From assembly GCF_011043555.1 (NCBI RefSeq), contig NZ_JAAKGS010000003.1, positions 62,001 to 126,000 on the forward strand: a stretch of DNA of 64,000 nucleotides, written 5' to 3'. The position numbers were made by a program, and so were the translations under genes. Positions 44,195 to 56,348 of this stretch are shown here, piece by piece. The notes below the pieces were generated by a model, which saw nothing but the letters and a program-made list of their open reading frames with translations, had not been told where the DNA came from and did no database searches. Within the stretch, counting starts at the first letter, position 1. The number at the start of each line of letters is the position of its first letter. The stretch is from Sphingobacterium sp. SGR-19. Lineage in GTDB: Bacteria; Bacteroidota; Bacteroidia; Sphingobacteriales; Sphingobacteriaceae.

Positions 44195-44767
44195 TTATTG
44201 CTGATCGCCCCAAGCGTAGCTAGCCACGTCAATACCACCTAGAGAAAGTACCCTGTCTATCACTGTAGCGGCTAGTTCTTCGAATGTTTTGGGAAGGCTG
44301 TAGAACGATGGACTTGCTGGACAAATAATCCCTCCTGCCTGCGTTACCACATTCATGTTTTGTATATGAATGGTACTCAATGGTGTCTCACGTGTAACTA
44401 GTACTAATTTTCTACGTTCTTTTAATACCACGTCTGCCGCCCGGGTAGTTAAATCGGAAGATATTCCTTGCGCAATACGTCCCAACGTACCCATAGAGCA
44501 CGGACAAACGATCATCGTTTCAAAACGTGCGGAACCAGAAGCAAACGGTGCCATAAAATCGCTCTTGTTATAAAAAGTGAAAGGATACTGTTGATAATCA
44601 TCGTTGCCTAATTCAAATTTCCACACATCTTTTGCGTTGTCAGACATCACGACGCCCACTTCCGCCACCTGATCATCCAGTTTGCTTAATTTATCCAACA
44701 ACACCTTTGCGTATATTGATCCGCTAGCACCGGTAATAGCAACAATTATTTTCTTTTTCTGCTTCAT
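44195..44767 (-). CDS. UbiX-family flavin prenyltransferase
   Basis: A 190-residue flavoprotein. Motifs are IIVAITGASGSIYAKVLLDKL (residues 6-26), the SGSARFETMIVCPCSMGTLGRIA segment that binds FMN, and RRKLVLVTRETPLSTIHIQNM. UbiX makes prenylated FMN for the UbiD decarboxylases. No ubiD gene is adjacent, so the partner must be elsewhere. The length is normal. Confidence 0.9.
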   Translation of the reverse strand: MKQKKKIIVAITGASGSIYAKVLLDKLSKLDDQVAEVGVVMSDNAKDVWKFELGNDDYQQYPFTFYNKSDFMAPFASGSARFETMIVCPCSMGTLGRIAQGISSDLTTRAADVVLKERRKLVLVTRETPLSTIHIQNMNVVTQAGGIICPASPSFYSLPKTFEELAATVIDRVLSLGGIDVASYAWGDQQ

Positions 44768-44843
44768 AACATTCTAGACAAAGCTACTAAAAAAGGAAGG
44801 TTTTCTTTATATATTTTTTGTGTCGCTCAAGCCGTGACCGGCT

Positions 44844-45169
44844 TTTCCTTTTTTTCTCTCAAAAAAAGGAAACAAAAAAAGTCGCCACTTTAAAACTTTG
44901 ATAAGATGGGTACTACAAAAATGATATTTCTACAGTTATCAAAGTTTTACATGTGGCAATAAGGGGTTAAGGATGGGATAATACAATTGCATGAACCCTC
45001 TCTTAACATTAAAATACCGCATCCGAATGTTTTACAACTGTACAAACTTATTTTTAGTACTATCCCTAATGTAAAACATTCGAAGCGGTGAGCTTTTTGC
45101 TTCTTTTTCGCGGGGAAAAAGAAGATGAAAAAATTTGATTAAAGAAGACCTTCGATATAAAAATCGAAG
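44844..45169. repeat. Cluster of five hairpins, including two 74-bp inverted repeats
   Basis: In a 422-base gap between ubiX and the glycosylase gene, five inverted repeats follow each other. A 12-bp T/A stem is at 44844-44872. IR1 (44884-44957) has outer arms GCCAC/GTGGC and inner arms TAAAACTTTGATAA. IR2 (45016-45089) has outer arms ACCGC/GCGGT and inner arms CGAATGTTTTACA. A 10-bp stem, CTTCTTTTTC, is at 45100-45124. A 7-bp stem, CTTCGAT, is at 45150-45169. IR1 and IR2 have the same length and layout. No ORF is present. Confidence 0.75.
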
Positions 45170-45189: not shown

Positions 45190-45681
45190 ATGTTCAAAAA
45201 ATCATTCGCGCCCATTATTCCCGAAAAAAGTAAACTTCTAATTTTAGGCTCTCTGCCCGGAGATAAATCATTGCAAGAAAACCAATACTATGCACATCCC
45301 CAAAATCGCTTTTGGAAAACCTTGGCATTGCTCCTATCCGCACCTGTTCCAATAGATTATTCTAGTCGAGTTGATCTGTTACACCGACACGGTATTGCAC
45401 TATGGGATGTCTGCGAAGCGGCTATTCGAAAGGGTAGTATGGATACCGACATCTTGGAGGAAAGTCCCAACAAAATAGACCAATTGCTTCAAGATAATCC
45501 CGATGTCAAGACCGTTTGCTTCAATGGCCAAAAAGCACAGAAGCTATTCGACAAATATTTTAAACGAACCGCCGGCATCCAATATATCACACTTCCGAGT
45601 ACTAGCCCCGCAAATGCCAGTTTTAATCAAGAGCGACTGCTAGGCGCTTGGGAGATTGTCGGCAAGATCGTTACATCCTAA
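45190..45681 (+). CDS. DNA-deoxyinosine/uracil glycosylase (UDG superfamily)
   Basis: A 163-residue enzyme of the UDG superfamily, close to the family named DNA-deoxyinosine glycosylase. Motif A region is LLILGSLPGDKSLQENQYYAHPQNRFWK (residues 17-44), and motif B is LPSTSPANASF. It should remove hypoxanthine or uracil from DNA during base excision repair. It is a single gene with hairpin-rich noncoding DNA on both sides. Confidence 0.85.
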   Translation: MFKKSFAPIIPEKSKLLILGSLPGDKSLQENQYYAHPQNRFWKTLALLLSAPVPIDYSSRVDLLHRHGIALWDVCEAAIRKGSMDTDILEESPNKIDQLLQDNPDVKTVCFNGQKAQKLFDKYFKRTAGIQYITLPSTSPANASFNQERLLGAWEIVGKIVTS

Positions 45682-56289: not shown

Positions 56290-56348
56290 GTAAGTTGTTC
56301 AAAAAAAAATAGGGAGCTTTGCTCCCTACTTTTTTTTGAACAACTTAC
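56290..56348 (+). terminator. Unusually long terminator hairpin of the HU gene
   Basis: A 28-bp stem with one mismatch and a TTT loop begins directly after the stop codon (GTAAGTTGTTC, nine A, TAGGGAGC; then GCTCCCTA, C, eight T, GAACAACTTAC). It contains a conventional terminator (TAGGGAGC/GCTCCCTA with a T run) inside a longer symmetric stem, so it could act in both directions. Confidence 0.75.

Follow-up and report, generated by a model that had tools for sequence, protein, structure and literature searches.

A high-copy, modular hairpin repeat of Sphingobacteriaceae, seen at a locus between ubiX and a deoxyinosine-glycosylase gene

Two inverted repeats of the same length, built on the same plan from different stem sequences, lie in Sphingobacterium sp. 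SGR-19 between a ubiX gene on the minus strand and a divergently transcribed deoxyinosine-glycosylase gene on the plus strand. What kind of element they form, and whether its structure is kept as RNA or as DNA, are the questions that this locus raises. In this report, we analysed a stretch of 64,000 nucleotides around it (the window) and found that the feature is probably one copy of a high-copy, non-coding, modular, hairpin-forming, non-autonomous mobile repeat family of Sphingobacteriaceae. That the family is a dispersed repeat with structure at the level of DNA is nearly certain, and it is likely to have spread as a mobile element; we infer, further, that an enzyme reads its folded strand.

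The element at the ubiX locus

A sequence-only reading of this DNA had described two 74-bp inverted repeats with their stems, bulges and loops, flanked by two T/A hairpins and a third small stem. All of these features are present, and the inverted repeats, IR1 and IR2, were placed correctly to the base (Table 1). IR1 reads GCCAC tt TAAAACTTTGATAA (31 nt) TTATCAAAGTTTTA cat GTGGC; IR2, on the minus strand, reads ACCGC tt CGAATGTTTTACA (33 nt) TGTAAAACATTCG gat GCGGT. The two belong to one family, as loop and bulges align once IR2 is reverse-complemented. The present analysis adds three points to that reading. IR1 and IR2 are homologues that face in opposite directions; the element reaches further, with terminal motifs at both edges; and the repeat is dispersed. 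The equal length that the reading had stressed is exact here and common in the clade, but it is not constant across species.

Table 1. Coordinates of the element and its neighbouring genes, as window positions
Feature	Coordinates	Strand	Basis or remark
UbiX family flavin prenyltransferase	44195..44767	-	TIGR00421, E 1.8e-55
TAAAAA, left copy of 6-bp direct repeat	44788..44793	.	comparison with G015, G060
Left terminal motif GAAGGTTTTCTTTA	44796..44809	+	present in minority of copies
Small hairpin hp0, GTCGC TCAAGCC GTGAC	44822..44838	+	sequence
Half-element 1: T hairpin, U unit class A, tail	44842..44985	+	model R1, 135 bits
T/A hairpin of half-element 1, TTTCCTTTTTTT / AAAAAAAGGAAA	44844..44872	+	sequence
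IR1, a U unit with 5-bp outer stem, 2/3 bulge, 14-bp inner stem and 31-nt loop	44884..44957	+	
Tail of half-element 1, ends ..GGTTAAGGATGGGATAATACA	44958..44985	+	
Half-element 2: T hairpin, U unit class B, tail	44987..45130	-	opposite orientation
IR2, a U unit with 5-bp outer stem, 2/3 bulge, 13-bp inner stem and 33-nt loop	45016..45089	-	
T/A hairpin of half-element 2, CTTCTTTTT CGCGGGG AAAAAGAAG	45100..45124	-	sequence
Right terminal motif GAAGGTCTTCTTTA	45140..45153	-	one mismatch to left motif
Third small stem CTTCGAT / ATCGAAG	45150..45169	.	overlaps right edge of element
TAAAAA, right copy of 6-bp direct repeat	45158..45163	.	comparison with G015, G060
DNA-deoxyinosine glycosylase (UDG superfamily)	45190..45681	+	TIGR04274, E 7e-56; PF03167

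Each inverted repeat is what we term a U unit, in which a 5-bp outer stem, a 2-nt bulge (usually TT or TG), the inner stem, a loop, the returning inner stem, a 3-nt bulge (GAT, CAT, GAG and others) and the returning outer stem follow one another. Loops span about 23-37 nt across units and share the motifs GGGATAGTAC ... TGTACAGT and variants of them. The U unit sits in a half-element of about 143 nt, composed of a T/A-rich hairpin, an A-run, the unit itself and a tail that terminates near GGATGGTGCA. The two half-elements of the window stand tail to tail and abut at position 44986; the match of half-element 2 to the covariance model R1 (44988-45130) scores 148 bits. The small hairpin hp0 belongs to a minority of copies, being found in 26 of 214 U flanks.

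The inverted repeats are hard to ascribe to chance. When 44844-45169 was shuffled 20,000 times with its dinucleotides preserved, at least one perfect 13-bp inverted repeat with a loop of 15-60 nt arose in only 43 of the shuffles, whereas the actual region holds two independent ones of that class. As single-stranded DNA, the 371-nt stretch 44790-45160 folds with z = -7.9. The window has just one other perfect inverted repeat of at least 13 bp with a loop of 20-45 nt; it is found at 56290-56348, and its stem is about 19 bp long.

A dispersed family and the turnover of its sites

The sequence-only reading proposed searching the genome and its relatives by sequence and with a covariance model, and a lone copy without conservation in relatives would have spoken against it. 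The searches decisively gave the reverse, many dispersed copies with conservation in relatives. A blastn search with the 241-nt core gives 57 matches in the 4.6-Mb genome, and the covariance model of the half-element, built from 43 copies of this genome, gives 86 at E<=0.01, the weakest few being marginal. Close congeners have from 44 to at least 53 model matches per genome, and other Sphingobacterium fewer or none. Across the family, matches occur in 42 of 301 Sphingobacteriaceae genomes and 7 of 25 genera. Sequences were inspected from four of these seven genera, including Olivibacter and the genus of the window; they have a common architecture and different stem sequences, and several carry a second arm of the C type described below. 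Among the matches listed, named records with pattern matches place the repeat family in Sphingobacterium, and pattern matches outside Sphingobacteriaceae come to about the number expected by chance. A blastn search of phage and plasmid collections gave no match, and neither did a pattern search of viral contigs. In 1.6 Mb of S. chuzhouense (G015), 16 of 18 loci lie outside predicted ORFs, which by a simple caller make up 92% of the DNA, and no gene orientation is obviously preferred among these 18 loci. Thus, as in a MITE, this is a short non-coding repeat with many dispersed copies.

The canonical element is larger than the half-element and consists of a U unit and a second arm, C, of about 215 nt, which is partly pseudoknotted and terminates in another T/A hairpin. 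The genome holds lone half-elements, inverted pairs of the window type, and half-elements followed by a C arm; the last arrangement also occurs in distant species, and its U-C order has polarity. Extra hairpin modules are inserted in some copies.

The ubiX-glycosylase site is occupied in seven of nine clade members: SGR-19 itself, S. haloxyli, S. micropteri, S. phlebotomi, G073, S. arenae and sp. FBM7-1. S. arenae (G014) has the U classes in reversed order, G073 carries a different second arm, and in S. haloxyli most of one unit has been lost. S. chuzhouense and S. corticibacterium (G060) have an identical clean 52-nt spacer, equal to a 370-bp deletion between TAAAAA repeats. As these hexamers lie on both sides of the window copy and the empty sites resemble a deletion between them, a single deletion between the 6-bp repeats accounts for such sites better than the reading that they predate an insertion. 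An interpretation of TAAAAA as a target duplication was given up, since an element is also present at that place in S. arenae, G073 and sp. FBM7-1, but without that arrangement. The comparison therefore indicates that occupation of this site is old and that the copy can be dispensed with; its modules seem to have been exchanged or flipped in place. Because two relatives have lost the element cleanly, the window copy is probably a passenger between the ubiX and glycosylase genes. The small stem at its right edge, CTTCGAT..ATCGAAG, has the loop ATAAAA in the lineage of SGR-19 and the inverted form TTTTAT in G073 and S. arenae (L112, L113).

Turnover was also seen at other sites. Where both flanks of an own site align to S. 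chuzhouense, the element is present in both genomes at 9 sites and only here at 13 (n=22; these are unique sites against the 1.6 Mb of G015, with redundant loci merged by hand), and the two genomes diverge by roughly 10%. These observations bear on the idea that the repeat is a protein-binding or nucleoid-organising site, similar to a BIME, that is kept at many intergenic places and has no mobility of its own. Some 50-90 mostly intergenic copies per genome, a constraint that acts on DNA, and a ubiX site that stays occupied across most of the clade while its modules change would all suit such a role. High site turnover between close species would not, nor would the many other Sphingobacterium species without a match, the tandem copies, the variable modules and the many copies that are without one arm. 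We therefore regard a binding site as unlikely.

Covariation at the level of DNA

The same architecture in different sequences had been taken to suggest covariation, and the alignment bears this out: among the 43 own-genome copies, 10 of 16 pairs change on both sides. Across 114 U units from many species, the 2008 stem cells comprise 1912 Watson-Crick pairs, 13 G-T (0.65%) and 35 A-C (1.7%); 8 further U units without clear structure are excluded from this count, and the cells are not independent because the copies are related. The stem finder treated G-T and A-C both as mismatches, so that the ratio of G-T to A-C is unbiased; mismatches at stem ends are, however, undercounted. By comparison, tRNAs found in the DNA of the same bacteria have G-T in 17 of 256 cells (6.6%) and no A-C. 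Since a G-T on one strand is an A-C on the other, neither strand resembles a selected RNA.

The C arm follows the same rule. Its columns flip from G-C to A-T with few wobbles, and the G-T total by RNAalifold (30 of 1144) overstates wobble in the core stems, as that program favours G-U columns. In its T hairpin, the loop is paired with a CTTGAY that lies upstream, either as CTTGAC:GTCAAG or as CTTGAT:ATCAAG; mixed combinations were never seen, and two copies have other changes. Stem covariation that is nearly without wobble speaks for a constraint that acts on DNA and not on RNA.

One option of the sequence-only reading, a structured RNA family, finds no support in this evidence: G-U pairs are almost absent on either strand, and Rfam has no family at its gathering cut-off for the window element, only chance-level matches below it. 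An RNA family was accordingly rejected on the wobble count and the Rfam result. In its general form, the idea is that a structured non-coding RNA, regulatory or attenuator-like, has been dispersed upstream of and between genes. It would account for the strongly covarying structure, for the pseudoknot-like pairing beside T/A-rich stems in the C arm and for the polarity of the U-C order; it fits poorly with the G-T frequency far below that of tRNAs, the inverted pairs of units, the lack of a single preferred gene orientation and the loss of the ubiX-site element in two species. We judge it decidedly improbable.

Ends, the enzyme and comparison with known repeats

If the family is mobile, its ends and its enzyme become important. 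With at most one mismatch, GAAGGTTTTCTTTA has 12 matches in the genome, 9 of them at an outer element edge, including both edges of the window copy. The terminal motif is found in 24 of 214 flanks outside U units (11%; 1.3 expected) and in 17 of 88 flanks outside C arms (19%; 0.4 expected). The terminally repeated copies are a minority, because similarity among most copies ends at the T hairpin. No general terminal inverted repeats were detected: in 105 elements with two arms, the left and right ends were as complementary to each other as those of mismatched pairs, in a test that trimmed 40 nt and so misses the window's own motif pair. Element junctions, defined against S. chuzhouense, are AT-rich and have neither a consistent target duplication nor precise boundaries.

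No Y1 transposase (PF01797; IS200, RAYT) was found in the genome of SGR-19 or in eight element-rich congeners (G008, G014, G015, G021, G032, G035, G060 and G073), and no Y2 transposase (IS91) in the same nine genomes; Y1 occurs in 13 of 61 Sphingobacterium genomes. REP/RAYT and IS91-type Y2 mobilisation were rejected because these genes are absent. Nor was a gene between a U unit and a C arm, or within a pair of terminal motifs, found in the genome of SGR-19, a draft of 32 contigs; the pair of motifs itself was found nowhere else in it.

A rival possibility is that the family is debris. It would then be an old MITE family with no current mobility or function, its palindromes perfected by quasi-palindrome correction (template switching) and its copies shuffled by recombination between them. 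Such correction during replication could produce Watson-Crick-only covariation without any selected function, and the variable modules at the ubiX site, with their reversed order in S. arenae, as well as the negative searches for Y1, Y2 and gene-bearing copies, are in keeping with it. Features that it does not readily explain are the conservation of unpaired parts of the U unit (the asymmetric bulge and the loop motif GGATAGTGC ... TACAG), an architecture conserved across genera, and the 13 of 22 sites occupied only here against a genome divergence of roughly 10%. Passive debris thus seems quite unlikely to us.

A mobile family remains our preferred reading. Its non-autonomous copies would be spread by a recombinase or transposase acting in trans, and the candidate enzyme would recognise folded DNA, either as single-stranded hairpins or as extruded cruciforms. 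Such recognition would be the reason that pairing, the 2/3-base bulge and the loop motifs are kept while stem sequence drifts. The full version of this proposal, in which hairpin and pseudoknotted ends of folded DNA are read by their shape and the enzyme belongs neither to the Y1 nor to the Y2 HUH transposases, is tentative, and we hold it with low confidence. Integron attC sites and the ends of IS200-IS605 elements are also imperfect hairpins with extrahelical bases, in which the fold matters more than the sequence. The resemblance is limited to this kind of constraint: Y1 is absent, and the attC core motifs were not seen by eye.

The sequence-only reading had also offered a palindromic, REP-like element or the ends of a small mobile element. 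In general form this stands, the copies being dispersed palindromes, but the strict features of REPs are lacking: there is no terminal GTAG tag, the size is very different and the Y1/RAYT transposase is absent. REPs measure 20-40 bp, and CGTC families, with stems of 8-9 bp and loops of 4-5 nt, are without a known dedicated transposase and have been reported in Bacteroidetes (PMC3733652). The present family is like REPs and BIMEs in its dispersed palindromes, its singletons and inverted dimers and its covarying subfamilies, and its unit contains CTCGTCGC. However, the CGTC inside CTCGTCGC extends into the outer stem and does not qualify as a REP tag, and a U unit of 74 nt with a loop of more than 30 nt, a half-element of about 143 nt, a second hairpin and the lack of a Y1 gene in the nine element-rich genomes set the family apart. 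It resembles MITEs in being short, AT-rich, non-coding, high-copy and structured, with terminal inverted GAAGGTTTTCTTTA in some copies; unlike in MITEs, the terminal motif is present in a minority of flanks, and no parent IS with such ends was found in the own genome.

BOX, of Streptococcus pneumoniae, is a modular, non-coding repeat of about 100 copies per genome with extensive predicted secondary structure; it is confined to the species and its relatives, has no gene of its own and forms subtypes with alternative modules (PMC3049150). Terminal inverted repeats and target duplications have been described for it, and some copies are expressed and potentially active as RNA (PMC3049150). The family described here is likewise modular, non-coding, high-copy, folded and geneless, with units that occur as U, U-U and U-C, with other second arms and in tandem. 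Its sequences and modules differ from those of BOX, its terminal repeats are found in a minority of copies, and its pairing points to DNA. On the best reading, its closest counterparts in kind are pneumococcal BOX elements and MITEs. No matching family or description was found in Rfam or in the literature on Sphingobacterium repeats that our search covered, which excludes most subscription journals.

The many copies across Sphingobacteriaceae offer unusually clean natural material for the study of structure that is kept in DNA and not in RNA, since bulges and loops stay recognisable although unpaired. Should an enzyme acting in trans read the folds, the family would in effect represent a new system of hairpin-DNA transposition or recombination in Sphingobacteriaceae; if there is no such enzyme, it becomes a test case for templated palindrome correction. 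In practical terms, many Sphingobacterium genomes contain this large intergenic feature.

Several further modules and arrangements were noted. A dispersed hairpin module of the approximate form ACCGACCAACGGGAGCTCATGAACACCAAAATAAACAC..GTTCATAA or AACCGAGCTTGCGAGCTCACCGAAGG lies between the T hairpin and the U unit or beside elements at L015, L021, L028, L037, L039, L200, L202 and L215, and at L113 (a ubiX site). At L010, L012, L038 and L044, a hairpin module of about 45 nt, GATGCGTCCC..CCGCACTT..GCATCGAGAATAGTT, takes the place of part of the U unit. Second arms of a third type, different from both U and C and sharing the pattern AAGGCATG..hairpin..TGTGTGGGATGGGCTTGTGCGACA, occur at L112 (the ubiX site of G073) and L381 (G260). 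Finally, some species have tandem arrays of U units or part-units (L155 3225-3852, L168 2337-3110 and L144 6809-7249), and the period of the array at L155 is about 162 nt.
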